Below the pieces are notes generated by a model that was not told the origin of the DNA, made no database searches, and was given only the letters and a program-made list of their open reading frames with translations. A program made the translations under genes and the position numbers. A DNA stretch of 64,000 nucleotides from a virus: positions 32,432-96,431 of IMG/VR virus record IMGVR_UViG_3300044922_000290; one strand, given 5' to 3'. Shown piece after piece: positions 1,903 to 52,400 of this stretch (the first letter of the stretch is position 1; each line of letters opens with the position of its first letter).

Positions 1903-2931
1903 TTAGATATATTTTATACGTTTTGAATCTACCCCCTGAAGGGCGCTAGCTAACCAAACTTCATCTTGAGTATCTTTAGCTACTGTAATGTAAATCTGAG
2001 CTTTCTTATCTCCTTCAAGATTACAAGTCCTTAGTATTTTCTGTACTTGCAATTCTTCATTAGATTGTATTTGGTGTATTACAGCATGTTTTAGTCCTAC
2101 TCCTGTAAAACCCATACTCAACATGCCAATACAACTTAGTTTATTTACTTTCTTTTTTTGAAATAACTCTAAACTATCTTCTTTAGATTTACTATGATAA
2201 GAATGTTTACAGAGTTTATCAGCTACTTCAGTTAGTGTAGTAAATACTAATACTCTCTTTAAAGGCTTTATAAGGTTCTGTGCTGCTTTTAATTTACTTT
2301 CTAATCTATAGATATACTGAGCTCTTTTTAATGCAGCATTGTTCTTTACATGCACATATTTAGCATCAGAGAATGATAGCATTTTAAAGTATTCAAAAGT
2401 TTTAGTAAGTTTATTGTAAGCTGTTCTTTCTTCAGGAGTTAATGTAACTTCTTTTATGAATATTTCATAGTCACTTATAATGTTGTGGTCTATGGCTTGC
2501 TCTATACTATAATCATACTTAACAGTTAGCCCTAGTTCTTGCCTTATTTTCTGTTTATTCTTATTACCCAAAGTACCTGTTGCACCAACAATTCTCTTTG
2601 GTTTTCTACTTTTAATGACTTTATACTGATTATCTGAAATCTGATGGCACTCATCTATTATGAGTAAATCTAAATCCATTGGAAGCTCTTCTGAAGACCT
2701 TATATTAAGTAATGTAGGAGTAAATCCTAAATCCCATTTAAGTATTTCAGCTCTCCAGGAATCTAAGATAGAATTAAAAGGAGCTACAACAGCTATCTTT
2801 TTATCTTCTTTACCTCGTATAGAATCTATTAAAAGCTTTGTCTTTCCTACTCTACAAGCTACTACTATCAAACAATTATAATTATTATCTTTAATAGCCT
2901 GAACAGCTTCTGCTTGAATTTTATTCCTCAT
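1903..2931 (-). CDS. SF2 DNA helicase (UvsW/SNF2-like)
   Basis: A 342-residue superfamily 2 helicase that would unwind or remodel DNA at replication or recombination structures, using ATP. Visible motifs are a Q-A-E-A-V region at the start, Walker A at residues 25-31 (A-C-R-V-G-K-T), a D-E-C-H box at 93-96, and motif III G-A-T-G-T at 116-120. The C-terminal half has the S-M-G-F-T-G-V-G-L motif V. Motif VI (Q-x-x-Q-K-I-L-R-T-C) keeps the final arginine but is irregular. It is compact, like T4 UvsW-type and crAss-phage helicases, with no extra domains. It lies just downstream of the polymerase in the leftward operon. Confidence 0.88.
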   Translation of the reverse strand: MRNKIQAEAVQAIKDNNYNCLIVVACRVGKTKLLIDSIRGKEDKKIAVVAPFNSILDSWRAEILKWDLGFTPTLLNIRSSEELPMDLDLLIIDECHQISDNQYKVIKSRKPKRIVGATGTLGNKNKQKIRQELGLTVKYDYSIEQAIDHNIISDYEIFIKEVTLTPEERTAYNKLTKTFEYFKMLSFSDAKYVHVKNNAALKRAQYIYRLESKLKAAQNLIKPLKRVLVFTTLTEVADKLCKHSYHSKSKEDSLELFQKKKVNKLSCIGMLSMGFTGVGLKHAVIHQIQSNEELQVQKILRTCNLEGDKKAQIYITVAKDTQDEVWLASALQGVDSKRIKYI

Positions 2932-2934
2932 TTC

Positions 2935-3114
2935 CTAAACTACAGTGTTTTGCTTTATTTTTTCTTTTTTATATTCATACCTACTACACTCAAGCCAATT
3001 ATCTGTTATATTTTCTTTTCCATTCAAGGTTTTATATAATCTAACAGTTGGGCAAGGATTAGGTTTTTCTTTGATTATTTCACAAAGAGGTTGATTGTCT
3101 TTTATTGTACTCAT
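2935..3114 (-). CDS. hypothetical protein, 59 aa
   Basis: A small gene filling the space between polymerase and helicase, with clean ATG and TAG. The product has cysteines at residues 11, 21 and 43 (L-C-E-I, P-C-P-T, E-C-S-R), a P-T-V-R-L-Y-K-T segment, and a lysine-rich tail. Protein-like composition and exact fit between neighbours support it. I recognise no family; a metal site is possible. Confidence 0.65.
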   Translation of the reverse strand: MSTIKDNQPLCEIIKEKPNPCPTVRLYKTLNGKENITDNWLECSRYEYKKEKIKQNTVV

Positions 3115-3120
3115 GTTTAG

Positions 3121-4956
3121 TTATTTTTCCCAGTAGTCCGAAATCTTGCAATCTACTTCAAAGGGTACATTTTTTACAATTGCTTCAGCAGCTTCAATCA
3201 TTAACTTATTAAGAACTTCTTTCCATTCTTCTGCTTTTTCTGCAATAACTTCTGTTTGTATCTCATCATAAACAGATAGCAATATATAAGCTGGGTAGTT
3301 GTTACTATCTATATATTCCTGTATTTTTATTAAAGCAAGTTTGATAGCATCCGCATTTGCACCTTGGATAGGTGTGTTCATTGATGCTCTTTCTATTTCA
3401 CCTTGCCTTGTAAAGTTATTTTTATCTTGCCAGCCTTCAAACCACCTTACTCTTCTAAATGGAGCAGGAGTTCTTATGTAACCTCTTGTTTTACCAAGAG
3501 TACCTAGCATTTTAAGAAATTTATCTACACCAGGAACAATCTTAAAAAACTTTTTAATAATCTTATCAGCTTGGTCTACAGATATTTGCATAGTATCTGC
3601 CAACTTAAATTTTGACATGCCATATGCTAATCCAAAGTTTACAGTCTTCTGCACATCTCTGTATGTAACACCAGGTTTAAAAGGAGTTTCTTTCTTTACA
3701 TCAGTAATAGGTATATCAAAAGTAGCTGCACAAAGAACACTATGTAAATCTTCTTTATTCTTAAAAGAGTTAACCCATAAAGGGTCTTCACTAAATTCAG
3801 CTATAATTCTTAATTCGGCTCCTGAGAAATCTCCACCAACTATTTTATACCCGTCTCTAGGTATAAAGCAACTTCTAATCTTTTTTGCTAATTCTCCTTT
3901 ACTTGGTATTTGATTAAGATTAGGCTCACTTACTGAAATTCTGCCAGTTGATAGAAGTTGCCATATGTTACAATGTATTCTACCTGTCTTTTTGTTTATA
4001 AACTTAAGAAAATCTCTACCAAAAGAAGAAGCCAGCTTATTGTTTTTGTTGTATTCAATAAGCTTTGCTATAATAGGATGATTACTTTTATTTGTTTGTA
4101 AAAACCTATCACCTGTTGTATCAGTAGCAAAGCCTAACTTTCTTACTATTTCTAGTTTCTGCTTTGCTGAAGCCCAATTTATATCAAGTGTCCTTTCTTC
4201 AAAGCCAAATAAGTTACCTTGAGTATATCTAGGTACATAAGATTTAAGTTTTGGTTCAGCCATAAGTAAAGTATCTAATTCTTCCTCACCTTGTTTAGTA
4301 AGAGCTTCAGTTACTTCACATACTTCCAGCCATTTCTTTTCATCTAACCTAATTCCGTTAAATTCTAACTTGGCAAACACTTTAGTAACTTCATTTTCTA
4401 GCCATACAAGATTGCCTAAATCCCATTTTTCTAGTTCTACAAGTTGTTTATCTCTAATATCTTGTAACAAGAGAACATCTTTAGCTGCATATTCTATTAC
4501 CCTATCACTAAGTTTCTCTGAATGTATTACACCTCGTATAGATTTATCTAATACAGTTGTAGTATATTTTAAAGCTAATGCAGCTAATCCTAATGCTCTA
4601 TCTTCTATACCTGTTGTAAGTATACATTCAGCCAGGAATGTATCGTAGAGTATTGTAGGATATATACCAACGCTATAAAAGAATTTTAAATCATACTTGG
4701 CATTTTGTAGAAGTAAGAACTTGTTTTCTAACAGGTCTTTAAACAACCTAATATCATTACAAGTACAATCTATGACATATTGATTATATCTATCACCCAA
4801 CTGTAAAGTAAGTACATAGCCATCTATAAATCCACCTACAGTTTCTGTGTCAACTTGTACTTCAAACTTATCCTCAAAATAATCCAATACATCTTGACAA
4901 GTAGCTAATTTATAGGTATCTGTATCAAACAATCTATTACTTACTAAGTATATCAT
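3121..4956 (-). CDS. family A DNA polymerase with 3'-5' exonuclease
   Basis: The replicative polymerase of the phage, 611 residues. The N-terminal third is a DEDDy proofreading exonuclease: V-D-T-E at about 35-38, N-A-K-Y-D at 85-89, and Y-A-A-K-D at 156-160. The polymerase domain shows motif A (G-G-D-F-S-G-A-E-L-R, catalytic Asp 376), motif B (K-T-V-N-F-G-L-A-Y-G, 437-446), and motif C as V-Y-D-E, where many Pol I enzymes have V-H-D-E. There is no 5'-3' exonuclease domain. The ATG at an ATGA overlap was chosen; a longer reading would need a TTG and adds a tail unlike the family. Crassvirales carry either family A or family B polymerases. Confidence 0.95.
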   Translation of the reverse strand: MIYLVSNRLFDTDTYKLATCQDVLDYFEDKFEVQVDTETVGGFIDGYVLTLQLGDRYNQYVIDCTCNDIRLFKDLLENKFLLLQNAKYDLKFFYSVGIYPTILYDTFLAECILTTGIEDRALGLAALALKYTTTVLDKSIRGVIHSEKLSDRVIEYAAKDVLLLQDIRDKQLVELEKWDLGNLVWLENEVTKVFAKLEFNGIRLDEKKWLEVCEVTEALTKQGEEELDTLLMAEPKLKSYVPRYTQGNLFGFEERTLDINWASAKQKLEIVRKLGFATDTTGDRFLQTNKSNHPIIAKLIEYNKNNKLASSFGRDFLKFINKKTGRIHCNIWQLLSTGRISVSEPNLNQIPSKGELAKKIRSCFIPRDGYKIVGGDFSGAELRIIAEFSEDPLWVNSFKNKEDLHSVLCAATFDIPITDVKKETPFKPGVTYRDVQKTVNFGLAYGMSKFKLADTMQISVDQADKIIKKFFKIVPGVDKFLKMLGTLGKTRGYIRTPAPFRRVRWFEGWQDKNNFTRQGEIERASMNTPIQGANADAIKLALIKIQEYIDSNNYPAYILLSVYDEIQTEVIAEKAEEWKEVLNKLMIEAAEAIVKNVPFEVDCKISDYWEK

Positions 4957-9118: not shown

Positions 9119-9682
9119 TTAAAGTATCTCTTTAATAAGAGAATCCAATTGTACTTCAATATCTTTTCCAAAGATAAGTGTTTTATTTGCTTTTATCAAA
9201 TCTAAATCGTATTCTGAAAGATTATTATCAGTTAAAGGATTAGTAATTTCTACTACTATTAATTCATCTTCACAATCATTATCTATACAATTAGCCAAAG
9301 CAAAATGTTCACTATCAAATCTTAAATCAGATACAATCACAAAAGAAGGTTTAGTTTCCCAAATATCTCCTGTACTTACTTGAAAATCATAATCTTTAAT
9401 TTTCTTTACAAGCTCTTCAGCAAAAACATTAGTACTAAATGCAGATTTTATAGCATCAGCAGTAGTTTCTAATAAATTTCTACCAACTTCTTTTTCATCT
9501 CTATTCTCCCAATTAAGAGGAGATTTTTTAGGAAAAAATGCTTTATCTACTATCTTCTTCAAAGGTTCAGCAAAAGATAATACTTTATTACTAATACCTT
9601 TTTCATCTAATTTCTTAGCCAACATAGCTGCTACTGTGGATTTACCTGAGCCATTTTTGCCTTTTAGTGCTATTATTTTCAT
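9119..9682 (-). CDS. deoxynucleoside monophosphate kinase
   Basis: A 187-residue P-loop kinase that would phosphorylate dNMPs to dNDPs to feed phage DNA synthesis. Walker A is at residues 8-16 (G-K-N-G-S-G-K-S-T). A V-S-D-L-R-F-D-S-E segment near residue 120 matches the arginine-containing region of the T4 gp1-type dNMP kinase family. Size fits the family. Its start overlaps the upstream stop by ATGA. Other small P-loop kinases are possible, but the replication-gene setting fits best. Confidence 0.8.
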   Translation of the reverse strand: MKIIALKGKNGSGKSTVAAMLAKKLDEKGISNKVLSFAEPLKKIVDKAFFPKKSPLNWENRDEKEVGRNLLETTADAIKSAFSTNVFAEELVKKIKDYDFQVSTGDIWETKPSFVIVSDLRFDSEHFALANCIDNDCEDELIVVEITNPLTDNNLSEYDLDLIKANKTLIFGKDIEVQLDSLIKEIL

Positions 9683-13054: not shown

Positions 13055-13414
13055 TTAATCCTCTGCTACAATAGCTTTTTTCTGAGATAGGATAAGTTTT
13101 TCAGCTAATTTTGTTGTTTCCTTAACTGTAAAGTCAGGATTAATAAGAAATAATATATCTTTCTTTTCAGCAAGACTATTATCTTTAAAGAGTAAAGAAA
13201 AGAACAATCTGTCTATGGATTGATTCCTAAAGGCTTTTTCATTCTCCAGGATAGAACGCCATTCAGAACCTAATAAACTTCCATAGTACTTGTCATCAAC
13301 TAAAAATCTTGTTAGTAATCGTTCTATTTCCGAATTTAGTAAGAATCTTACAGGCACAAACTTTCCATTAGCATCTAGCCAACAGAGTTTTCTATCATTA
13401 GAGTGGTTTCTCAT
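13055..13414 (-). CDS. hypothetical protein, 119 aa
   Basis: Helical, basic at the start (M-R-N-H-S-N-D-R-K), with R-L-L-T-R-F-L-V-D-D-K-Y-Y and K-L-A-E-K-L-I-L-S-Q-K-K. It is coupled to the ParB-like gene by ATGA, which suggests the two work together. I recognise no family. Confidence 0.68.
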   Translation of the reverse strand: MRNHSNDRKLCWLDANGKFVPVRFLLNSEIERLLTRFLVDDKYYGSLLGSEWRSILENEKAFRNQSIDRLFFSLLFKDNSLAEKKDILFLINPDFTVKETTKLAEKLILSQKKAIVAED

Positions 13415-14175
13415 AGTAGTTGTTTAAATGTTGTTTCTAAAGCACCAGGTTCTTGTGTTGCAAATACAAATGAATCTTTAATCTTCAATAGCTTTGCCAA
13501 GAACTTAGTGTGGTCATATTTACTACCAACTTTAGATAAGAAATTAAGATACTCTGAACAAGCATATTTATTTTCTGACCTGTTCATGCGAGGTAAGATT
13601 TTAAATACATCAGTAAGATAATCTAATTTCTTCTTGGCTCCCGCTTCATCGTAAATAGTAAAAGTACCATCTTTAATGTATTTTGAGATAGAAGAGCCAC
13701 CTGCACTAACATTAATAGTCCTATCAGATAGTATAGAAGCTATAATAGATAATTCAAAATCGTAGATTTCAAAATACCTATTAAGTTTCTTGTAATCATC
13801 TTTTATTGAAGCCCAAGAAGTAATAAAATCTAATAGACACCAAGATTTACTACTTGCATTTAGCGAAGCAATCTTTTCTATTAATTCTTGTTGGTTTTTT
13901 ATTGCAATAAAAGTACAAGGAATGTCTATACCAAGACGTAAACAAGCAGTATAAAGATGTTGTCCATCAATAATGTAAAGCTTTTCTATACCATCAATAA
14001 ATGATATTTTAGCTACTACAACAGGACGTATAATTTTACCTATTCTCATAATAGCATTAGCTATTTTAGTAACATGGCCAGGGCCTACAGCTCTGTTTAT
14101 ACCTGCTAAAAAATGTAGTCCCTTTTTACTTGTTGGTTTAAGAATCAGGTCTACGGTTAAAGGTAGTATGTTCAT
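13411..14175 (-). CDS. ParB/Srx-fold nuclease-like protein
   Basis: A 254-residue protein whose first 95 residues have the ParB/sulfiredoxin N-terminal layout. There is a G-K-I-I-R-P-V-V-V-A strand (residues 46-55), then L-Y-I-I-D-G-Q-H at 66-73 and an A-C-L-R-L-G-I helix. Chromosomal ParB has G-E-R-R-x-R-A at that place to bind CTP; here it is D-G-Q-H-L-Y-T-A, as in ParB-like proteins that are not sequence-specific partition proteins. No classical helix-turn-helix is obvious in the remainder, which is helical. ParB-fold proteins are common among crAss-phage replication genes. It overlaps both neighbours (ATGA and TAATG). A link with the parS-type site at 18.1 kb is possible, but the altered box argues against direct binding. 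Confidence 0.72.
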   Translation of the reverse strand: MNILPLTVDLILKPTSKKGLHFLAGINRAVGPGHVTKIANAIMRIGKIIRPVVVAKISFIDGIEKLYIIDGQHLYTACLRLGIDIPCTFIAIKNQQELIEKIASLNASSKSWCLLDFITSWASIKDDYKKLNRYFEIYDFELSIIASILSDRTINVSAGGSSISKYIKDGTFTIYDEAGAKKKLDYLTDVFKILPRMNRSENKYACSEYLNFLSKVGSKYDHTKFLAKLLKIKDSFVFATQEPGALETTFKQLL

Positions 14176-16449: not shown

Positions 16450-16704
16450 TTATTTGTCTATTACTTGTTCATAATAATCAGCTGCTACTATTCCTGATGT
16501 CCACCAACCTATTAATACAGTATAAGCGTAGAACCAATTAGGGTCAGTAATAACTGATTGATAGTTAAACCATAACATACCAAATAATGATAGTATGAAG
16601 AATAAAGCTGCAAATACAGCTATAAAGATAATGAATAAGATGAAGTATTTCACGTTGTTTGTTTTTAGAGTTAATAAAAATAAAGTATCTGTGCTATTAT
16701 TCAT
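16450..16704 (-). CDS. membrane protein, 84 aa, two TM segments
   Basis: A long hydrophobic stretch at residues about 20-46 and a second at about 60-76 (Y-A-Y-T-V-L-I-G-W-W-T-S-G-I-V). The two are joined by a short polar loop. A hypothetical 14-codon ORF overlaps its start by ATGA. Role unknown; early phage membrane proteins can act in superinfection exclusion, but nothing proves it here. Confidence 0.62.
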   Translation of the reverse strand: MNNSTDTLFLLTLKTNNVKYFILFIIFIAVFAALFFILSLFGMLWFNYQSVITDPNWFYAYTVLIGWWTSGIVAADYYEQVIDK

Positions 16705-17432: not shown

Positions 17433-17783
17433 TTAATTTTCTAAGTGAGATATATGCTCTTTATACATCATTTGATCATATACATCTGTTGAAGTACGAG
17501 TTTTTAAATAAATCAAGGCTTTATTTTTTAAGTTCTCTTTTTCATTAGATATATCTAAGTTCAAATGCTCTTTTAACTGTTTACTTGTTAGTAATCCCTG
17601 ATATTTACCATTTCGGTAGATTTCAGCAGCTAGAAAAGGTTTTGATATAAAAGCAAATTGTTCTTCTCCACTTAACCAGTCTTTCCAAATATGTTCTTGG
17701 TACGTATGAACTGGTAATAATAGACTTAAAACTATTTTAAGGTCTATATCATTTTTTGGTTGGATTGTTTCTGTAAAAGTCAT
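17433..17783 (-). CDS. hypothetical early protein, 116 aa
   Basis: The ATG giving M-T-F-T-E-T-I-Q-P is preferred; a GTG 33 bases upstream would extend into the noncoding block. The protein is soluble, with W-K-D-W-L-S-G-E-E-Q-F-A-F and R-N-G-K-Y-Q-G-L-L-T-S-K-Q-L-K. It is the second gene of the leftward operon after about 590 noncoding bases. No family recognised. Confidence 0.65.
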   Translation of the reverse strand: MTFTETIQPKNDIDLKIVLSLLLPVHTYQEHIWKDWLSGEEQFAFISKPFLAAEIYRNGKYQGLLTSKQLKEHLNLDISNEKENLKNKALIYLKTRTSTDVYDQMMYKEHISHLEN

Positions 17784-17877
17784 TGTTATGTTTTTTGAGT
17801 TTGAGCTACCATGCACTCCTTGTATTTATCATTGTTTATACTCTATGAAAGGAACATAAAAGAGTTAATAATCCCTC

Positions 17878-18045
17878 TGCACTCAGTTGTAATACACGAG
17901 ACTATCCGACCTGTCTCTCACGGTTTGATGTATTACAACTGCTCACCCTTGGGAAGTGAGTTATGGTGCATTAATTATGAAGGTTATCTGAACACCTACA
18001 AACGCCAGTAGCTTACTGGATAGACACGAGGTTAAAGGAATCGTG
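17878..18045 (-). ncRNA. candidate structured RNA with three-way junction
   Basis: TGCAC (17878-17882) pairs with GTGCA (17966-17970) and encloses two hairpins. One is a perfect 13-bp stem (17884-17896 with 17929-17941) topped by GAGAC/GTCTC. The other is CTCAC/GTGAG (17942-17960). Two more hairpins follow: CCAGTA-GCT-TACTGG (18005-18019) and CACGA/TCGTG (18025-18045). No leftward gene covers this block. Strand is inferred from the surrounding transcription. Large phage noncoding RNAs exist, but I cannot match this one to a class. Confidence 0.5.
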
Positions 18046-18143
18046 ACAATACTTTATTGCTATAATATTATAAGATAAACAGGGTAAAATACTACAGTTT
18101 TCAGGATGTTGGAAAGGATAGTTGGTAATCCATTATAACAAAT

Positions 18144-18159
18144 TGTTCCACGTGAAACA
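18144..18159. promoter_or_regulatory. parS-type ParB binding site
   Basis: TGTTCCACGTGAAACA is identical to a standard bacterial parS site (consensus TGTTNCACGTGAAACA), which chromosomal ParB recognises across most bacterial phyla. A 16-base match in an AT-rich genome is very unlikely by chance, and it lies in the noncoding region between the two arms. No second copy was seen in the window. It could let the phage genome bind host ParB, or be bound by a phage factor. Confidence 0.75.
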
Positions 18160-18205
18160 TTACATAATGTATTGACTATCAACACTTTCAGAAGAAAATT
18201 AATAA

Positions 18206-18295
18206 ACTATAGCATTAGTAGTGGCCTTGATTATATCTAACATCATTTCACCGTTAAATATAAATGTACCCTCCTAAAACACCTAATACTATAGT
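18206..18295 (-). ncRNA. 90-base segment closed by a 12-bp inverted repeat
   Basis: ACTATAGCATTA (18206-18217) faces TAATACTATAGT (18284-18295). Eleven of twelve positions are Watson-Crick. The remaining one is a G-U wobble on the leftward strand and a C-A mismatch on the rightward strand, so a leftward RNA is favoured. The interior has an ATG-less open stretch of about 24 codons. It matches the other closed segments of this arm in length and in its ACTATA arm. Confidence 0.4.
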
Positions 18296-18333
18296 CTATT
18301 AATAGTGTAGCACATAGTGCTTAGAGAAGAATA

Positions 18334-18374: not shown

Positions 18375-18653
18375 CTATTCGTCCCTTTTCATCATCAATG
18401 TGTTGCAGGTAACCTCTTTTACCTCACCATTATCATCTGTAATCTCTACCTGTCTTGGGATTACAGTGAAATGTGCTACATTAATGTCCATTGTAGCACC
18501 CTTATTTTCCTGATTATCCAATGAAATGTAGAAGGTTAGTTTACGTGAGATACTGTTATTCTCACCTACTTTCTGAGTAGTGTTAGTAACAATCTTGGTG
18601 AAAAACTTACCTGAAAGGTCTGACTTGCGTGAAAATTCTACTGTAAATAGCAT
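18375..18653 (-). CDS. first leftward gene, hypothetical beta-rich protein, 92 aa
   Basis: Beta-strand-rich (F-T-V-E-F-S-R-K, L-T-F-Y-I-S-L-D-N, A-H-F-T-V-I-P-R-Q-V-E-I), ending M-M-K-R-D-E. It is nearest to the divergent promoter region and has codons like the highly expressed genes, so it is probably one of the first and most abundant early proteins. A hairpin sits in its leader and another after its stop. No family recognised. Confidence 0.7.
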   Translation of the reverse strand: MLFTVEFSRKSDLSGKFFTKIVTNTTQKVGENNSISRKLTFYISLDNQENKGATMDINVAHFTVIPRQVEITDDNGEVKEVTCNTLMMKRDE

Positions 18654-18894: not shown

Positions 18895-19239
18895 ATGCAC
18901 AAATTACATATACCTATATACGAAATACCTTTATTTGTGTATATAGGATACCCACCTGAAGGTATTAGAAAGAAGTATAATATAGATCCAGGGTTAGATG
19001 CAGTAGCTGCTGTACATGAAATAGAAGGTGCACTTTTAGTATGGTTTCACCCAACAGAATTTATACCATCTTTAGTAGCACATGAAGTAATACATCTTAA
19101 GAACTTGATATTCACACATATATCTTTTAAACAAGATCCTACAAATGATGAAGCAGAAGCTTATCTTGTAGAATACTTAGTAAAAGAAATAGAGAAAGTT
19201 TTCAAAAAATACAACCTTTCTCAGAAAAAAGTAGTATAA
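18895..19239 (+). CDS. HExxH zinc metallopeptidase-like protein, 114 aa
   Basis: First gene of the right arm. H-E-V-I-H at residues 63-67 within V-A-H-E-V-I-H-L, plus a downstream N-D-E-A-E-A-Y-L (84-91) that can supply the third ligand, fit a small gluzincin-like peptidase. Similar small HExxH proteins occur in Bacteroidota phages, and some resemble ImmA or SprT-like enzymes. There is no signal peptide, so it would act in the cytoplasm, perhaps cutting a host regulator. It has its own terminator and sits next to the phage chaperonin genes. Confidence 0.65.
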   Translation: MHKLHIPIYEIPLFVYIGYPPEGIRKKYNIDPGLDAVAAVHEIEGALLVWFHPTEFIPSLVAHEVIHLKNLIFTHISFKQDPTNDEAEAYLVEYLVKEIEKVFKKYNLSQKKVV

Positions 19240-23359: not shown

Positions 23360-23867
23360 CATTACTCCTGAAGCATTAGGATTAAAAGCTTTTAGGGATA
23401 TATGGGAAAGGGATAAAACCAAAAATAAAGACAGGGCTAAACTAGATTTAGCCTTTGTATATTTTTACGCTGACTGGACTTCTGTATTCAAACTATTTGA
23501 GAAGCAGCTAAAGATAGAAAAGTTAGAAGAAGAAATATACGACAAAAAGTATAAGTGTGATGAACTTGTATTAGCTGCATGCGAATTGTACGAAGTAATA
23601 CAAAATGAATCTTCTTTCTCCTTAAAATTCTTAAACTCAATAAAAGAGTCTGCTGTAAATATATCTAACTATCTAAAGACCATAAGATTAGAAGAAAGAA
23701 CTAAGCTAGGTGGACAGGTTTATAATGTAGCACAAATACAAAAAGCCATTTCAGATTTTCCTGAAACAATAAAAAAGATTACTGAAATGGAGAAAGTAGT
23801 AGAAGCAGAACTAACTCAAAAAGATAACTTAAGAGGCGGGGCTGAAAAATCAACATTTGAGGATTAA
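23322..23867 (+). CDS. helical packaging-block protein, 181 aa
   Basis: Largely helical, with I-E-K-L-E-E-E-I-Y-D-K-K-Y-K and E-T-I-K-K-I-T-E-M-E-K coiled-coil segments and a flexible end (L-R-G-G-A-E-K-S-T-F). It overlaps the HU-like gene by 38 bases and TerL by a TAATG junction. The immediate position before TerL and the oligomer-type helices make it a second candidate for the small terminase. Confidence 0.6.
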   Translation: MKLLKLENNNLCSITPEALGLKAFRDIWERDKTKNKDRAKLDLAFVYFYADWTSVFKLFEKQLKIEKLEEEIYDKKYKCDELVLAACELYEVIQNESSFSLKFLNSIKESAVNISNYLKTIRLEERTKLGGQVYNVAQIQKAISDFPETIKKITEMEKVVEAELTQKDNLRGGAEKSTFED

Positions 23868-25876
23868 TGCTTACGAAAGAAGACATACATAATTTTACTG
23901 AAGTAAGAAGACACTTTGAAGAATATAACTCTTATTGCCCCTTTCCCGAATCTCGTACACCTAACTCACGTTGGATGCAATTCTGGAATAGAGAGCAAGA
24001 AAGAATATTAAAGGGTTACTACTACACAGAAGATAAATTTATTACAGGAGAACTATACTATTATTTCAATTATAGTATAATGGATAAGACTGTAGAAGAA
24101 GGTGGAATGACTTTTTCCATTAATGGATTTCCAGTAACTTGGGATGGTACTATTGAAGTAGATGGGTATTATCAAGAGGCACATAGAAATAAAAAAGATT
24201 GCTTCATACTCAAAGGTCGTAGGAAAGGTTTATCTTACTATGCAGCAGCATTAGCTTCTAGAATATACCATTTTAAAAGAAACAGTAATGTATTTATTGT
24301 AGCAGCAACAAAACAATATATTTTAGGTGCTGACTCTACAATGACTAAGGTACTTCAGAATGTTGACCACATGTCTTTACATACACCTTTTGGTAAACTA
24401 CGTCAAAAGATTAATAAAGCTGACCACATACGTGCAAGTTATCTAGAGAATGTAAAAGGGCAGATAATAGAAAAAGGTTACAAATCTAATATAGCTGCAA
24501 TAGTTTTAGATGACCCACAAAAGTTACGTGGTAAAAGCGCAGATTTAATTATAGTAGAAGAAGCTGGTTCATTCCCTAATTTACTAGATGCAATACCTAT
24601 TATAAGAAAATCAGTACAGGAAGGTATATTAAAGAAAGGTACAATATTAGCATTTGGTACAGGTGGTGATGAAGGGCCAGGTTTTGCAGCAATGGAAACT
24701 GTATTCTACAAACCTGATGCATACGGATTTCAAGATGTAAAGAATATATGGGAAGAAGCTAAAGTTACCCAACCTTGTTGTTTCTTCTTCCCTGCTTACA
24801 AAAACTACTTGGGTTTTATAGATGAGAATGGTAACTCTTTAGAGAAAGAAGCAAAAGATTATATACTACAGCAAAGGCTAGATAAAAAGAAATTAGGTGT
24901 GGATAATAAGACGCTGTTAAAAATGGCAGCGGAAGATCCAATTACACCTGAAGAAGCAATGCTTCGTACAAAGGGTACTTACTTTCCGATAACTGAAGCA
25001 AAGAAAAGATTATCAGAACTATACACAGACAAAGAGTTATCAAAGCACAATGTTGGTAGATTAGAGTATAATGAAGATAAAGTAATTAAATGGGTTGATG
25101 TACAGGATGCACAACCTCAAAGAGAATGGCCTATATTAGACCCAACCATAAATTACATAGAAGTATTTGAACTGCCTCAACAAGATAAAAACACACTTGT
25201 AGTACCTCGTAACAGATACATAGGAGGTATTGACCCGTACAATCAAGACCAGACAACAAACTCTGAATCAGTTGGTTGTATGTTTATAATGGACTTATGG
25301 ACTGACAGGATTGTATGTGAGTATACAGCTCGTCCTGAAAGAGCAGAAGATTTCTATGAAACTTGTAGACGTATTTTAGTTTGGTACAATGCAACAGCAA
25401 TGTATGAAGCTTCTGTAACCCTGATGTATAAATTCTTTGAGAGAAAACAACAATTGTATTTATTGGCAGATACTCCTTCTTACTTAAGAGATAGAAATAC
25501 TTGGAGAGAAGGGTTAGATACTTCAAAAGGTATAAAGCCAACTGAAGATGTAAACAAAAGAGGAAGAGAATCACAAAAAACCTGGATGCTATCCGACTTA
25601 GATGTAACTACAGGTTCCAAAAAAATAGATACCATAAGATCTGTAGGTTACTTAAAAGAAGTTATAAACTGGAATAAGGATGGTAACTTTGATAGAGTAT
25701 CTGCAATGAACATGCTATTCTTGTATAGAGAAGACCTTACAGATGATGTTGCAGAAGAAAGGAAAAAACCTAAGTCAAATAAATTCGGTAACTTTTTTAC
25801 CAAATTTAAAGTACAAAGGAAGTTAACAGACATTTTCGATAAAGAAGATTTTGAAACATTTGAGAAATACAGATAA
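23867..25876 (+). CDS. terL: terminase large subunit
   Basis: The motor that pumps DNA into the procapsid and cuts it, 669 residues. The N-terminal ATPase has a Walker A-like K-G-R-R-K-G-L-S-Y (116-124) and Walker B with catalytic Glu, D-L-I-I-V-E-E-A-G (226-234). The C-terminal RNase H-like nuclease starts with I-G-G-I-D-P-Y at 452-458, with another acidic site in Y-E-A-S-V. The long first 100 residues and the overall sequence fit crAss-like TerL. It abuts the portal gene without a gap. Confidence 0.95.
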   Translation: MLTKEDIHNFTEVRRHFEEYNSYCPFPESRTPNSRWMQFWNREQERILKGYYYTEDKFITGELYYYFNYSIMDKTVEEGGMTFSINGFPVTWDGTIEVDGYYQEAHRNKKDCFILKGRRKGLSYYAAALASRIYHFKRNSNVFIVAATKQYILGADSTMTKVLQNVDHMSLHTPFGKLRQKINKADHIRASYLENVKGQIIEKGYKSNIAAIVLDDPQKLRGKSADLIIVEEAGSFPNLLDAIPIIRKSVQEGILKKGTILAFGTGGDEGPGFAAMETVFYKPDAYGFQDVKNIWEEAKVTQPCCFFFPAYKNYLGFIDENGNSLEKEAKDYILQQRLDKKKLGVDNKTLLKMAAEDPITPEEAMLRTKGTYFPITEAKKRLSELYTDKELSKHNVGRLEYNEDKVIKWVDVQDAQPQREWPILDPTINYIEVFELPQQDKNTLVVPRNRYIGGIDPYNQDQTTNSESVGCMFIMDLWTDRIVCEYTARPERAEDFYETCRRILVWYNATAMYEASVTLMYKFFERKQQLYLLADTPSYLRDRNTWREGLDTSKGIKPTEDVNKRGRESQKTWMLSDLDVTTGSKKIDTIRSVGYLKEVINWNKDGNFDRVSAMNMLFLYREDLTDDVAEERKKPKSNKFGNFFTKFKVQRKLTDIFDKEDFETFEKYR

Positions 25877-28327
25877 ATGTTAGGACAAGTAAAATTACTC
25901 CCAGACCAAATGGTGTCTGATGAAAAGAAAGCTACCAAAGAATGGCAGAAGAATAATTTAGATGCTTTTGAAAACATTATTATGTTTGAGAATCGTCAAT
26001 TACGACCTACCTTATATAATAAGTTTAACAACTATAATCTAAAGAGAGGGGTAATAAACCAAGCAGATTTTGAGAAAATACTAGACCCACAGGGACTAGG
26101 ATTAAATTCTTTCCCTGCAAGATTAGAACATATGGGTTTTGGTAATGCCAAAATAGACCTACTTGTAGGGGAACATATGAACCGTAGGTTTGATTGGAGA
26201 GTAACACTTTCTAATAATGATGCTGAAGGTATTTCAGGAAAAGAACAAAGAATGATGGGTAGGGTAAAGCAAGAACTTGTAGATATGTTACAAGGGAACC
26301 TACCTGAAGAAGAAGCACAAGCAAGACTACAAAGGCTTTCTGATTACATGAACTATGAATGGCAAGATGTAGCAGAATCAGGAGCTCAAAAGATATTAAA
26401 GTATTATTACAAACAACAGGATTTAGATACAATATTTAACAGGGCATTTGAAGATGCTCTGATTGCAGGTGAACAAATAGTATTTACAGAAGCACTAGGT
26501 AAAGAACTCTTTATAAGAAAAGGAGACCCAACAAAAATCTTTACCATTATGTCTGCTGAATCAATAGATGAATCAGGACTTGAGGCACTAGTAGAGGTAA
26601 GCTACCAAACAGTATCAAATGTACTAGACAATTTCCATCCTTACTTAGATACAGAAGCCATAGCTAAACTACAAGCCTTTAAAGGTATCTCACCTTTTGG
26701 TGGTACATCTGGTTGGACTTACCCTACTTATGGGCCTGTAGGTGAACTTGCAGTACCTGATAATTCTATTACAGCTTCAGGTATATTTCCTGTATCTGAA
26801 TTAGAAAGAACACTATTTGCAACAAACATAGATGTGAATGGTAATATGCGTGTTGTGCATTGCTTGTGGAAATCAAAAAGAAAAGTAAAACTACTTAAGT
26901 CTTTCAACGAAGAAACAGGACTGGAAGAAGAAAAATATGTACATCAAAAGTACAAAGCTAACAAACTTTTGGGAGAAGAAGTAGTAAAAGAAATGTGGGT
27001 AAATGAATGGTGGAGAGGTTTTAAGATTGGGTATGATATATACGTAAAGATAGAACCTGTACCATTCCTTTCTACATCACTAGACAATATCTCACGTCAA
27101 GAACCACCTGTTACTATACAGATATATAATACAAATACTTCAAAGGCACAATCCTTAATGGATATTTGTAAACCCTTTGATTATATGTTAGATGTACTTT
27201 ACTTTAAAAAGAAACATTTAACATCACTTATGTTACCTGACGTGTTGGTATTTCCTACTTCAATGATGCCTGATAACATGAATCTTGAAGAGTTCATCAA
27301 TTATATACAGACTACTGCAATCATGCCTTTAGATCCTACTGCTGAAATAGACAATGGAGCATTGGCAGGTAAAGCAGCAGGACAAATAAACAATACAGTA
27401 GGAGCACAAATAGTATCAGCAGCTCAAAATGGCCCACTATCAGTAATAGGTTCACTTATAGATACTACTTTACAAAGTATGGATCAGGTAACTGGCATTA
27501 CACAACAAAGACAAGGCGCTATACAAAATAGAGAATTAGTAGGTAACGTAGAAAGGTCTGTAACACAATCTTCTCATATAACAGAGAAATGGTTTAGGCT
27601 GAATGATAAATTTAAACTAAGGACGTTACGTAAAGTAATGAATATTTCTATTCAGCAATTCAAGGAGAACCCAAAGAAATTCCAATACATATTAGACGAC
27701 CTTACAACATTAGTCTTATCAGATGAAGAACTTACAGCAATACAAGCTTCTGAATTTGACTTGCATGTAACCAACTCTACTAATGATGCACTAATAATGC
27801 AGAAGATAGAAGGCTTATTCCAAGTTGCAATGCAAAATGGTACAGCTACTCTTTCTGATGTACTTGAAATCTACCAAAATGAATCTATTGCTAATGCAAC
27901 TGCCAAACTTAAACTACGTGAAAAACAAAGACAAGAGAAAGCAGCTGAAGCAGAGAAACAACAAATAGAAATCAAAAAACAACTTGATTTAGCTGCACAA
28001 GAAATAGAAGATAGAAAAGTAAGGTTAGAAGCTGCACGTCTAGAACTAGAAAGATATAAGATAGATACAGACAGAGAAACTAAACTGGAAGTAGCTCAAC
28101 TACAAGCTCAATCATTTGACCCTGAAAAGGATTATAATAATAACAATGAGCCTGACTATTTAGAAATGAGAAAACTAGATTTAGAACAACAGAAGATAGA
28201 ATTACAACGTCAATCTGAATCTATAAGAGTTTCACTAGAACAACTAAAAGAGAAGAATAAGAAAGAGATAGCTCAACAAAAGCTAGAAGTAGATAAAATA
28301 AAAGCAAGAAAAGGTGGAAGTAAGTAA
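25877..28327 (+). CDS. portal protein
   Basis: A 816-residue portal of crAss-like type, the dodecameric ring at the capsid vertex through which DNA passes. Position right after TerL, length, and segments such as L-G-L-N-S-F-P-A-R-L-E-H, V-G-E-H-M-N-R-R and G-I-T-Q-Q-R-Q-G-A support this. Residues about 680-816 are a long coiled coil with one break holding an acidic D-Y-N-N-N-N-E-P-D loop that might bind calcium. The barrel of crAss-like portals projects into the capsid, and this coil may be part of it. Confidence 0.92.
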   Translation: MLGQVKLLPDQMVSDEKKATKEWQKNNLDAFENIIMFENRQLRPTLYNKFNNYNLKRGVINQADFEKILDPQGLGLNSFPARLEHMGFGNAKIDLLVGEHMNRRFDWRVTLSNNDAEGISGKEQRMMGRVKQELVDMLQGNLPEEEAQARLQRLSDYMNYEWQDVAESGAQKILKYYYKQQDLDTIFNRAFEDALIAGEQIVFTEALGKELFIRKGDPTKIFTIMSAESIDESGLEALVEVSYQTVSNVLDNFHPYLDTEAIAKLQAFKGISPFGGTSGWTYPTYGPVGELAVPDNSITASGIFPVSELERTLFATNIDVNGNMRVVHCLWKSKRKVKLLKSFNEETGLEEEKYVHQKYKANKLLGEEVVKEMWVNEWWRGFKIGYDIYVKIEPVPFLSTSLDNISRQEPPVTIQIYNTNTSKAQSLMDICKPFDYMLDVLYFKKKHLTSLMLPDVLVFPTSMMPDNMNLEEFINYIQTTAIMPLDPTAEIDNGALAGKAAGQINNTVGAQIVSAAQNGPLSVIGSLIDTTLQSMDQVTGITQQRQGAIQNRELVGNVERSVTQSSHITEKWFRLNDKFKLRTLRKVMNISIQQFKENPKKFQYILDDLTTLVLSDEELTAIQASEFDLHVTNSTNDALIMQKIEGLFQVAMQNGTATLSDVLEIYQNESIANATAKLKLREKQRQEKAAEAEKQQIEIKKQLDLAAQEIEDRKVRLEAARLELERYKIDTDRETKLEVAQLQAQSFDPEKDYNNNNEPDYLEMRKLDLEQQKIELQRQSESIRVSLEQLKEKNKKEIAQQKLEVDKIKARKGGSK

Positions 28328-29948: not shown

Positions 29949-31472
29949 ATGATTGAAAATTTTGGAACCCTCTCAAAACTAGGCCCTAAAAGTTACATTG
30001 GGCCTTTGAAAGTACCTCACTTGGGTGAACTAGGTGAGAAATTTGGCTACGATGTAGAAAAAATGGTCTATCGCAGATTGTTTCAATATCTACCTGCTGA
30101 TGATTATATCGCATTTATGCGTGAATTTCCAGTACATGCCTTAGACACTAGCAATGATTATTTCTTCTGGCGTCTTGGCGGTACTAATCAAAAGGTAGTA
30201 ACTCTACTTGACTGGTCTGACTTAGCAGGTGCTAAACCTTCTAAAGTAGGTCAAAATAACGCTCAATGGTATATGTACTTTGCTGAGCCTCTATTTAAGG
30301 TTGGTGATGTAGTTCTTGGTGATACACCTCTTGACTACAATATCATGGTTAAAGATTTTACAGAGGTTTCTAAAGACAAATATGAGTACCGTGTAGAACT
30401 TATTAATCAAGGTTCTCCTCTAATGTCTGTACCTGATTCAGAATTAACTGTAGGTTCAAACTGGTCTAAAGGCTGGCAATTGTCTCCTAACGAGCGTTCT
30501 TACCAAGGTACTGATTTTTATATGAATACCTTTGTTGAGCTTAAAGCCCCTACTTCATTGCACCGTATGCAATACAAAGTAGATGGTAACATGATTGAGC
30601 AAAACAAACCAATGCCTTTTGGTATGGTATTTAAAGATGATGCAGGTGCTAAAATCTCTGTAGGTGCTTATGTAAACTACTTTGATGCTCTTGCTATCCA
30701 TCAGTTTGAAATGCAAGCTGCCCGTGCTTTCATTCTTTCTCAAAAGAACTATGATAGCTCTGATATGGTTTATAACATTGACGAGAAAAACAAATGTGTT
30801 ATTAAATCATTCCCAGGTTTCTTCAAACAAATTGCTGCAACAAACACTATTCCTCAAAACTCTATTAACTTAGACCAAATAGTTGACATTGCACAAGACT
30901 TGAACTTGGCTTACAAATATGATGAGCAACTTTACCTAGTAATTGAAACAGGTTACTATGGTTACCAAGAAGCTTCTAAATGGCTAGAAAACCGTTCAAC
31001 TACTTACACTCCTAACTGGACTTTACATCGCATTCAAGAGAATGGTGATATGGGTGGTCAAGGTTTAACTTACCAAGGTGTATTCACTCGTTTCCGTTCT
31101 TACAATGGTGTAAACATTGAAATACGTTTCCGTAAGTTCTTTGATGATCCTGAATTGTGGAAACAAAAAGATCCTTCAGGCTTAGGTCTAGTATCTTCTC
31201 GCCACATGTTAATCCGTTCAGGTGTTAAAGCTGATGGTCAATTCCTAGGTGATAGTGGTATTAAACGTCTATCTGTGAAAGCTTACGAAGATGGTATCTT
31301 CCGTTACATTCCAGGTATGCGTAACCCATTCTCTCCAGGTGGTACAGGTTGGGCAGGTAAATCTTCTACAGTATCTCCTGAAGATGCTTATGAAGTACAT
31401 GGTATGATGTATAATGGTTGCGTTATCGAAGACCCAACTAAAATACTATTCTTGCCACGTAACGTAGCTTAA
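29949..31472 (+). CDS. major capsid protein
   Basis: A 507-residue HK97-fold shell protein of crAss-like type. Supporting it are position after the scaffold, size, and the end with M-M-Y-N-G-C-V-I-E-D-P-T-K-I-L-F, typical of the group. Codon use shifts to CGT, GGT, AAC and TTC, as in very strongly expressed genes. A purine-rich run (AACTAAAAAACAAAT) precedes the ATG. It is followed by a hairpin that probably stabilises or ends the message. Confidence 0.93.
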   Translation: MIENFGTLSKLGPKSYIGPLKVPHLGELGEKFGYDVEKMVYRRLFQYLPADDYIAFMREFPVHALDTSNDYFFWRLGGTNQKVVTLLDWSDLAGAKPSKVGQNNAQWYMYFAEPLFKVGDVVLGDTPLDYNIMVKDFTEVSKDKYEYRVELINQGSPLMSVPDSELTVGSNWSKGWQLSPNERSYQGTDFYMNTFVELKAPTSLHRMQYKVDGNMIEQNKPMPFGMVFKDDAGAKISVGAYVNYFDALAIHQFEMQAARAFILSQKNYDSSDMVYNIDEKNKCVIKSFPGFFKQIAATNTIPQNSINLDQIVDIAQDLNLAYKYDEQLYLVIETGYYGYQEASKWLENRSTTYTPNWTLHRIQENGDMGGQGLTYQGVFTRFRSYNGVNIEIRFRKFFDDPELWKQKDPSGLGLVSSRHMLIRSGVKADGQFLGDSGIKRLSVKAYEDGIFRYIPGMRNPFSPGGTGWAGKSSTVSPEDAYEVHGMMYNGCVIEDPTKILFLPRNVA

Positions 31473-49434: not shown

Positions 49435-52400
49435 TGGGAGAATACGTTAGAAATACATTTGACAAAGGATTAAATAAAGACTTAAGTAAGGGTAAAACAG
49501 CAAACAATACATTACTAGAAAACTTAGGTTTTAACATAGTAACTGAACTTGGGTTATCTACCTTAGCTTTAGAAACTCCAAAAGGAAACAAGTATTCTTT
49601 TGAGATACCTGATACATTTGCTATTTATAAGATTACCATACGTAGATTGCCTACAGAAGCATCAGGATATAATTTAGATATTAACCAACAAGGTGTAGGA
49701 ATAACTTTATCTACCGCAACTACAATAGATGAGTTATTCTCACAGATGCAATCTTTTGTACAAAATAGCTTTAAAATACAACTAGGCTTAGATTTTATCT
49801 ATGTAATAGGAACTACACAAAATCCTATTATATCTTCTACTATGTTTAATAGTGGAGGCCCACTTACACTAGCTTTACATATATCAGCTCAAACTGATTT
49901 AGCTATTGTAGGTTGGAAACAAATAAGAGATTCAATAGGTATATTAACTACAAAGAAAACTAATGTAGCTCCTTTTACAGATAGTGATGGTAACATATCA
50001 CAAATATGGAAACTAGACTATAATGAAGTTACAGATACAGTAGTTTCTCCTAATGGTACAGCACTAAATTGTGTAGACCATTTATACTATAATGACAGAT
50101 TAAATTTATCTTTACAACATGAAATATATAGGGAAATTGAGGGAAGGTATGAAAATACACAAGCTCAAAGATTCTATTGGACGGACAATTATAATTACCC
50201 AAGGGCATTTAATTTTGCATTGGAGAACAGCTTTACAACTCCTCCTGGGTTACTAGATTGGAAAGCAGATGTAGCATTATCTGTACCTATATTAGATAGT
50301 ATTATACCAAATACAGGTAATATTCCTGTAGGTAAAATAGGGTACTTTTACCAACTGCAATCTACTGATGGGGCATTATCCCCATATTCTGATATAAGTA
50401 ACCTTATAATGCTTACAGACAGTACATATGCAGAAAGTTCACAACAATATAAAGGAGCTATATCAGGTACTAACAGTACTAAGTCAGTAAGGTTTTATAT
50501 AAACAATATTGACCAAAGATACTCTATAATAAAAGTATGTTATGTAATATATCAAAATAACAACATACCAGAGTTTTATAAATTTAATGAGTTTAATATT
50601 ACTTCAAAGAAGATGTTCTTTGTACATTCAGGTAATGAATCAGATACAGCACTATCTTTAGAAGAAGTAATAAATCCTAACATACAGTTTGATACTTGTA
50701 AATCAATAACTTACAAATACAACAGGCTGTATGCTGCAAACACTACTACAAAAAACTATGCATTAGATTTTGATGCGAGAGTTTACAGATACTCAGGTAA
50801 GGCTCCATACAATTTTACAGATGTAGCTCCTCAAGTAGCTAAAGTATGGTCACAAGATGGTAGGTATAAACTTATAAATACCAGCTATAAGATATACAAT
50901 GTTAATGGTACAAACATTACACCTCAAGATATTTCTGATTCAGAAGACTTAGTAAATGCTTATAATGATGAATCAGGTACTGTATATGGACTATTCCCAA
51001 CAGGTGATGTATCTGTTTGGGATAATATCTATCAGTTTAAGTTTCAAGCAGATGGATTAACTTTAGGAGGCTCAGGGCCAAATGTAAGTTATAAGTTTGT
51101 AAAAGAAGATATGTCTTGTGATTGGGTAGTAACAGGAAGTTTAGACCACACCGAAGGTACAAATGGTTCAGGCCCTGTATATTTACCACGTGGTACAGAC
51201 TTTATTAATGTACCAGCAGGTAATAATACAAGTTCTGTAAACTTAGGTATAACAGGGCAAGATTATTTACAACAAGGTTTTGCTAACTTAAAATCAAGCT
51301 CACGTGAATCTATATACCTTACTTTACAAAGAGGTGAAACATATAGAGTTGGTATAAGGACTTTAAATAAGAAAGGAGAAACTTCTTTTGTAAATTGGAT
51401 GGGAGATATACGTACTCCTGAAGCTGTAGAATATAATACAGTAGACCCAAGTGCTAATCCTTTTAACTATAATCTGGCTTTAAATAATCTTACAGACAAT
51501 GTAAACTATTTACAGGTTCGTAGTATAGGGTTAGAATTTACAATAAGAACTGAGAATTTACCTGATGATATTACTGCATTTCAGATAGTTTATGTAGAGA
51601 GAACTGACGAGAATAAAACTAGGTTTGGTACAGGCTTACATTTACCTGTACTACAAATGAATGGCAGTGATGTCAACAGGCTAAAAGTTAATGGGGAGTT
51701 TACTGATGTTTATGTTACTGGAGTATATAAAAGTACAAGTAGTGCTGAAAACTGGACAGCTTATGACATACGAGAAGATTCTACTACAAAAGGTGGTGGT
51801 GGAGTATCTTTTATAAGAAGTAACTTTTGGCCTTTACAATTAGGGGCAAATCAACCCAACAGAATAGGATTAATTAAATCTCCTATGGCTGATGCACAAT
51901 TACCTCTTACAAGTGCTACATACATAAAACTACATGAAGGGTTTAGAGCCTATGAATCTCAATACTTTGCACAAAATCCAAGTAGTGGGGGGTTAGCTAT
52001 GTGCTATGGCTATTGGTTAAAATATAATGATTCTGCTTTAGGTATACCAACTACACAAATACGTAACTCAATAGACGCACGTCAGAATGTAGGTATAGAT
52101 TCTATTGTATTAAGAACTGTTGCTCCTACTGTAATGCAGTATGACTTTCATAATGTAGCATTAAGGAATGGTGATGGTACAGAAGGAAAACGTGGTTTAA
52201 TAGCAGGATTAGGACAAACATCAGAATTTATTGTTACAGGACAAATAACTAATACAGTACAATACAATACTACTTTTAATGGTAGTAATGTTACAGATGT
52301 AGATGCATTACCTTTTACAGCTTTTAATGATTCTGCGTTTGAACCAGGAACTGATGATGCTGATGATAACAGAGGTATACCAAAATCTAACTACAGGTTA

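Follow-up and report, generated by a model that had tools for sequence, protein, structure and literature searches.

A lone chromosomal-type parS sequence near the arm junction of a crAss-like phage genome as a candidate site for host ParB

A crAss-like phage genome carries, in noncoding DNA near the junction of its two arms, a single exact copy of a chromosomal-type parS sequence, and the ParB protein of the host is probably the one that would read it. The site lies in a window of 64,000 nucleotides, which is the whole stretch of DNA analysed here and corresponds to positions 32432-96431 of the 96,431-base record G000; coordinates refer to this window unless another contig is named.

A single parS-type site in a crAss-like genome

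We class the phage as crAss-like (Crassvirales) on a crAss-type capsid, terminase and portal protein, a genome near 97 kb (here 96,431 bases) and two opposite arms, an assignment made from these characters. The major capsid protein matched Crassvirales members at 24% identity over 99%, and the large terminase matched cr53_1 (Suoliviridae) at 35% over 94% of its length, with Flavobacterium phages less close. The structural genes are as follows.

23867-25876, + strand: large terminase subunit, crAss-like type (match to cr53_1)
25877-28327, + strand: portal protein (phrog_6547)
29949-31472, + strand: major capsid protein, crAss-like type (comparison with crAss-like phages, phrog_11589)

The left arm encodes DNA polymerase A, primase-like, DnaB-like and RIIA-like genes. 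Also on this arm are a spore-photoproduct-lyase-like protein, a uracil-DNA glycosylase and an RIIA-like lysis-inhibition protein (genes of these kinds, - strand: L129 17832-18680 and 18949-19638; L130 3276-5390). Because of the crAss-like kinship, the host is presumed to belong to the Bacteroidota.

The parS-type site and the nearby turning point of the genome are listed here.

18144-18159, + strand: parS-type site TGTTCCACGTGAAACA, single copy in the record, chance expectation computed
18519 (record position 50,950), no strand: cumulative GC-skew minimum, presumed junction or origin region

The 16-mer TGTTCCACGTGAAACA fits with 0 mismatches the pattern TGTTNCACGTGNAACA, which we take to be the consensus of chromosomal-type parS, the ParB/Spo0J centromere site, and this pattern occurs once in the entire record. 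Allowing up to three mismatches to the 16-mer, the window gave a single extra match, which was the same site on the opposite strand. Markov models of order 1-4 trained on the record put the chance expectation for such sites at 0.00008-0.00036 per genome. The site is noncoding and is flanked by ORFs at 17433-17816 and 18375-18653 (both - strand), close to the point where gene direction turns from leftward to rightward; the first long genes pointing right are at 18895 and 19489. The sequence-only reading had proposed an exact chromosomal parS consensus standing alone in noncoding DNA between the arms, and this was confirmed. The match supports taking the 16-mer as a putative parS of the host's chromosomal type.

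Chromosomal parS sites are located near the replication origin. In the phage record, 375 bases separate the 16-mer from the cumulative GC-skew minimum. Skew and gene orientation flip together, so this minimum shows where the arms meet and is no more than a hint of an origin.

The same sequence in Bacteroidota chromosomes

A sample of 148 genomes was drawn from one phylum around an Aequorivita genome, itself selected because it carries the site. The pattern TGTTNCACGTGNAACA was present in 111 of the 148, and its reversed control in 2. Genomes bearing the pattern had 1-5 copies each, and 37 of the 148 had none. The TGTTCCACGTGAAACA variant was frequent among the Bacteroidota matches listed. In Aequorivita, Dokdonia, Pedobacter and Roseivirga, parS adjoins gidA/mnmG, and in Aequorivita and Dokdonia it does so on either side.

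Bacteroidota chromosomal parS beside gidA/mnmG: L311 at 2844 and 4751; L323 at 2342, 2457 and 4356; L297 at 3100; L341 at 2742 and 2788

The parS pairs that flank gidA/mnmG, and many other listed Bacteroidota pairs, had a spacing near 1.9 kb. The phage copy is identical in its 16 bases to the chromosomal sites, which stand beside gidA/mnmG in the four named genomes, but it is single and adjoins neither gidA nor a recognised parAB.

parS in viral contigs at large

The exact 16-mer TGTTCCACGTGAAACA was found in at least 120 IMG/VR stretches. The pattern ATTGTTYCACGTGRAACAWT likewise occurred in at least 120, whereas its reversed form occurred in 0 and a version with permuted arms, which kept the CACGTG core and the palindrome, in 2; these control patterns match composition and not every oligonucleotide bias. 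From two IMG/VR scans we fetched, among the matches listed, 229 stretches chosen for containing the pattern. By a simple ORF call, 107 of their 296 sites were intergenic, compared to 6.9% of random positions, and 189 of the 229 stretches held one site each. IMG/VR includes proviruses, so part of its parS sites may be host DNA.

Within the stretches alone, a ParB box motif was present in 3 of the 229 and a ParA motif in 0 of the 229; the same motifs were present in 33 and 36, respectively, of 119 bacterial stretches. We also searched 50 whole parS-bearing records for ParB_N, namely 46 of the 229 IMG/VR stretches, picked mainly for long contigs, and four named phages. At E 0.001, 45 of the 50 gave no match and five matched, and 47 had no ParB_N over the cut-off while three had one; fragments among these records can miss a viral ParB.

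For named phages we probed INPHARED with two AT-flanked parS sequences, which hit 333 and 326 records, and with the first of them reversed, which hit 1; the counts include redundant records (for example 91-92 from Listeria) and imperfect or partial matches, and the control mirrors the first probe only. Phages of Listeria and Lactobacillus (Herelleviridae) are among the matches, as are relatives of phi29 and phages of Pseudomonas and Vibrio. The exact sites were located in four named records, and INPHARED rows at 100% over query positions 8-23 also contain the exact 16-mer. Four palindromic parS sites lie within 5 kb in vB_BcoS-136, and one palindromic site each was found in Bromius and LMTA-94, for which a stretch was fetched. 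The genome of phi29 holds four exact copies of the same non-palindromic 16-mer TGTTCCACGTGAAACA, at L465 508, 2025, 3365 and 8823. A search with PF02195 (ParB_N) gave no match in LMTA-94, Bromius, vB_BcoS-136 or phi29. By these counts, parS is strongly over-represented in viral contigs.

Some arrangements stood out among the carriers. The exact 16-mer lies in annotated terminal repeats of phiPsa374, phiPsa315 and phiPsa267 (direct repeats) and of Vibrio phage phi 3 (left repeat), all of them phages of Gram-negative hosts; it may be these repeats that enter the cell ahead of the rest of the genome. The GC-rich contig L044 (IMGVR_UViG_3300037518_000322, 116,662 bases) has twelve parS-type sites in a 13.9-kb stretch from 8906 onward, and the whole contig gave no ParB_N match.

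Host ParB as the probable reader

No canonical partition genes of the phage's own were recognised. PF02195 (ParB_N) was matched in 0 of six records of the phage group, two of which exceed 90 kb, whereas the control was positive in 10 of 14 genomes. ParA (PF13614) was not found over the cut-off in the same six records, with one sub-threshold match in G001. These two families make up the genome-wide search for partition genes. A phage-plasmid with its own recognisable ParABS was rejected on these results. A P-loop protein at 9119-9682 gave weak matches to many families, with phosphomevalonate kinase as the top match and CbiA/ParA included, and all those shown were below the cut-off. The integrase search covered the tyrosine family, which was found in 0 of the six records, with positive controls.

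Because no canonical ParB, and no ParA over the cut-off, was recognised in the phage record and the same site is present on Bacteroidota chromosomes, host ParB is probably the likelier reader of the phage parS, and it would likely bind the 16-mer. This is what the sequence-only reading had suggested, and the lack in the record of a PF02195 match, a ParA over the cut-off and a tyrosine integrase, together with the sharing of the site by Bacteroidota chromosomes, supports it. The most telling support comes from the enrichment of parS in viral contigs and the 45 of 50 carriers with no ParB_N match.

Precedents for such reading exist. The 2005 work of Meijer et al. is said to link Spo0J to the parS sites of phi29. 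Spo0J, the ParB of the host, reportedly entraps the phi29 chromosome in the spore, as stated in excerpts of a paper that also describes phi29 as virulent (PMC9437464, citing Meijer et al. 2005). Like the present phage, phi29 has the identical 16-mer and no ParB_N match, and the host Spo0J (ParB) reportedly acts on its genome. It differs in being a 19-kb phage of a spore-forming host with sites spread over its genome, whereas the crAss-like phage, at 96 kb, has one site, close to where its arms meet. Endospores are not known from the presumed Bacteroidota hosts, and the benefit has to be another one than spore entrapment as in phi29.

Reading of a mobile element's parS copies by the ParB of another element is also described for SGI1, whose parS mimics hijack the IncC ParABS: an SGI1-derived minimal replicon with a mimic parS was stabilised when the other element's ParA and ParB were supplied, according to excerpts of PMC10954446. 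There, the ParAB comes from a helper plasmid and not from the chromosome, and SGI1 is an integrative element and not a phage. In excerpts of PMC13190303, engineered lambda-parS gathers cell-made CFP-ParB within minutes of injection and then replicates and lyses, with ParB foci that expand during phage replication. As far as this account goes, it indicates that ParB can load on entering phage DNA and that lysis can still follow. Phage-plasmids with their own parABS (P1 and some actinophages) resemble the proposed case in having an unintegrated phage genome with a parS centromere, but they carry parA and parB in cis, neither of which was recognised in this phage; the same source, as excerpted, relates a suggestion that Carjivirus communis (crAssphage) is a phage-plasmid (PMC11652158).

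The reading we tentatively prefer, and would put a little short of probable, is that the 16-mer may be a working parS recognised in trans by ParB from the chromosome of a host presumed to belong to the Bacteroidota, for partition during unintegrated persistence. After injection and circularisation of the phage DNA, host ParB would load at parS and slide as a CTP clamp across the flanking phage DNA. The loaded ParB would then recruit host ParA, and perhaps SMC. As a result the phage genome could be segregated and sit in the cell as an origin region does, persisting unintegrated in a carrier state or slow infection. We infer partition as the purpose of the site, as well as its benefit and the persistence it would serve.

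The position at the arm junction and GC-skew minimum, the retention of a block around the site in the relative L122 (below) and the lack of a recognisable canonical ParB, ParA and tyrosine integrase argue for this reading. Against it, two other relatives (L124 and L125) have no site in the same slot and the retention rests on a single relative. Also against it are the 37 of 148 genomes of the phylum with no pattern and the phage's own ParB-like partition protein as classed by PHROGs.

Host ParB could instead be bound for the sake of the lytic cycle, a reading we consider rather unlikely. ParB clamps, with SMC, would be drawn onto replicating phage DNA and depleted from the host chromosome, and would compact, place or untangle phage genomes. 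The Herelleviridae are virulent phages, and parS is present in their Listeria and Lactobacillus members. It is likewise present in relatives of phi29, itself virulent in the excerpted account (PMC9437464), and LMTA-94, Bromius, vB_BcoS-136 and phi29, all with no PF02195 match, fit a lytic use as well. With 1-5 copies per TGTTNCACGTGNAACA-bearing Bacteroidota genome, a replicating phage would presumably soon outnumber the chromosomal sites. The gathering of cell-supplied ParB on lambda-parS DNA, in foci that expand with replication, points the same way in the portions of PMC13190303 cited above. Yet a single site would be a weak sink at low copy, and the natural case reported, phi29, is one of spore entrapment, that is, of segregation and survival, as excerpts of PMC9437464 present it. 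Since lambda-parS lyses despite ParB and phi29 is virulent, to the extent that these excerpted sources describe them, the site may serve something other than partition in a carrier state.

A hypervariable slot and the relatives of the phage

Five related IMG/VR contigs were collected through GroEL, and a terminase search added L380, a 96% fragment. One of them, L125, is 94 kb long, and its GroEL is 100% identical to that of the window in the best segment. Comparison of these relatives placed the site in a slot with conserved borders.

18054-18079, + strand: conserved left border of the slot (TTATTGCTATAATATTATAAGATAAA), from the comparison of relatives
18080-18301, no strand: hypervariable noncoding slot, occupied by the site in the window and L122 and by different sequence with inverted repeats in L124 and L125
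18141-18160, + strand: 20-base block AATTGTTCCACGTGAAACAT, identical in L122
18302-18324, + strand: conserved right border of the slot (ATAGTGTAGCACATAGTGCTTAG), from the comparison of relatives

The slot was fully readable in four genomes (the window, L122, L124 and L125), between the left border TTATTGCTATAATATTATAAGRTAAA and the right border ATAGTGTAGCACATAGTGCTTAG; L123 and L126 end inside or beyond it. In IMG/VR, the 20-base core of the right border occurred in only four contigs, all of them relatives already known. The 16-mer occupies the slot in the window and L122 and is absent from the same slot in L124 and L125, that is, it is present in two of four fully covered slots. Outside AATTGTTCCACGTGAAACAT, the alignment of the window with L122 had 89 of 137 columns identical (65%, with gaps counted as differences), and at that identity the chance that a given 20-base run survives is about 0.0002. 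By these alignments, one diverged relative has kept the putative site and two lack it. The check suggested in the sequence-only reading, a search of relatives for the 16-mer at the same place, has a mixed outcome, with the site present in L122 and absent from L124 and L125.

Further from the phage, the parS-type site was found, with up to one mismatch, in 0 of 16 named phage records (13 Crassvirales, two Flavobacterium Fipvunavirus and one Leptolyngbya phage). At the same tolerance it was found in 0 of 50 IMG/VR terminase relatives, which were taken from 80 and include L125 and many fragments. The fetched stretches of all 80 terminase relatives had none in 937,139 bases. A general crAss-like trait was therefore rejected, given 0 of 16 named records, 0 of 50 terminase relatives and L125 with no site, and by these comparisons the candidate parS is lineage-specific among crAss-like phages. 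The same two counts speak against a need for parS in crAss-like persistence generally, for which the site should be commoner.

The patchy distribution raises the question of a passenger, a 16-mer without function here that was picked up with a fragment of host DNA or arose by chance. Its presence in just two of the four covered slots, its absence from the 16 named records and the 50 terminase relatives (L125 among the latter) and the nature of the slot, a recombination hot spot in which pieces are shuffled, all favour such an origin. We nevertheless regard it as improbable. The chance expectation is 0.00008-0.00036, the 20-base block outlasted a divergence of ~35% around it in L122, and viral contigs overall are strongly enriched in the same site.

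Other properties of the region gave little. Rfam placed no family near the parS-type site, the best match being a sub-threshold one to rli45 at 16531-16613. The slot as an RNA gene was dropped, as the folding of 18055-18304 was no better than that of shuffled sequence (z -0.34). Sigma-70-like promoter matches numbered 13, against 13.0 in shuffles, and so showed no excess. Near and distant BLAST of the site region against named phages gave no match.

Beside the slot, four relatives share an almost unchanged noncoding element that ends in GCCAGTAGCTTACTGGATAGACACGAGGTTAAAGGAATCGTGACAATACT, despite its shuffled surroundings, and L122 has a further matching piece.

Noncoding element ending GCCAGTAGCTTACTGGATAGACACGAGGTTAAAGGAATCGTGACAATACT: window 17941-18053; L122 4594-4636 and 4770-4882; L124 3570-3688; L125 5284-5334

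The element matched no Rfam family, and it may be a phage regulatory RNA or a recombination element.

The ParB-like protein of the phage

The phage encodes a protein of partition type, which we presume is not the reader of the site.

13411-14175, - strand: ParB-like protein, 254 aa (phrog_12305, phrog_1033), resembling only the N-terminal ParB domain, with GQHL for GERR

It matched no Pfam ParB model and no HTH family. In a profile comparison with ten canonical ParBs from bacterial loci, only residues 36-103 aligned (E 0.00057, with a probability of just 29.6%), and DGQHLYTAC of the phage protein stood opposite AGERRWRAA. The absence of the G-E-R-R box from this protein, pointed out by the sequence-only reading, holds in this alignment at its 29.6% profile probability. 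Its profile gave one chance-level match (E 0.53) against PDB sequences, and AlphaFold2 on the ParB-like trio returned low confidence (pLDDT 37.8, pTM 0.29). Its sole matches in sequence searches were distant proteins of Enterococcus and Streptococcus phages, along with two uncultured records. ParB-fold proteins of a divergent kind are widespread in phages, and some with the fold bind ATP or GTP and not CTP, according to excerpts of PMC12704722.

Among the relatives, L122 (97%) and L124 (69%) have the ParB-like gene; it was not found in L125 or in the fragments L123 and L126. In L125 it is swapped cleanly for three small ORFs (2526-3282), with conserved neighbours on both sides.

That the site is an operator of a phage protein (this ParB-like one, or an unrecognised regulator), parS-like through that protein's descent from ParB, is very unlikely: the window and L122 have both the site and the gene (97% identical) and L125 has neither, in a tiny sample, and the protein could have a DNA-binding domain, on which the AlphaFold2 model (pLDDT 37.8) is uninformative, but L124 carries the gene (69%) and no site, the protein aligns weakly over residues 36-103 only, with GQHL for GERR and no Pfam HTH, 45 of the 50 other parS-bearing records have no ParB_N match, and one copy per genome is unusual for an operator.

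A possible role of host-read parS in phage persistence

Reading of a phage parS by host ParB is already known from phi29; what is new here is a crAss-like phage, a presumably non-sporulating Bacteroidota host and a site at the arm junction. In the open-licence literature of PubMed Central, the matches listed included no report of parS in crAss-like phages and no survey of, or claim about, phages with a lone parS. The enrichment in viral contigs, the hundreds of named records that match the probes and the 45 of 50 carriers with no ParB_N match suggest that exploitation of host ParB is not a peculiarity of phi29.

A wider version of our preferred reading, partition by host ParB, is that many kinds of phage, including this crAss-like one, carry a bare parS as a passport into the ParB-ParA (and SMC) segregation of the host. 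Their unintegrated DNA would be partitioned or positioned in this way, giving a carrier state with no integrase, repressor or parAB of their own. We hold this to be possible but doubtful. If it were true, a lone parS in noncoding DNA would be a readable sequence sign of that carrier lifestyle. As an answer to how crAss-like phages persist without integration, a centromere read by the host would offer a simple mechanism, open to testing, for at least one crAss-like lineage.
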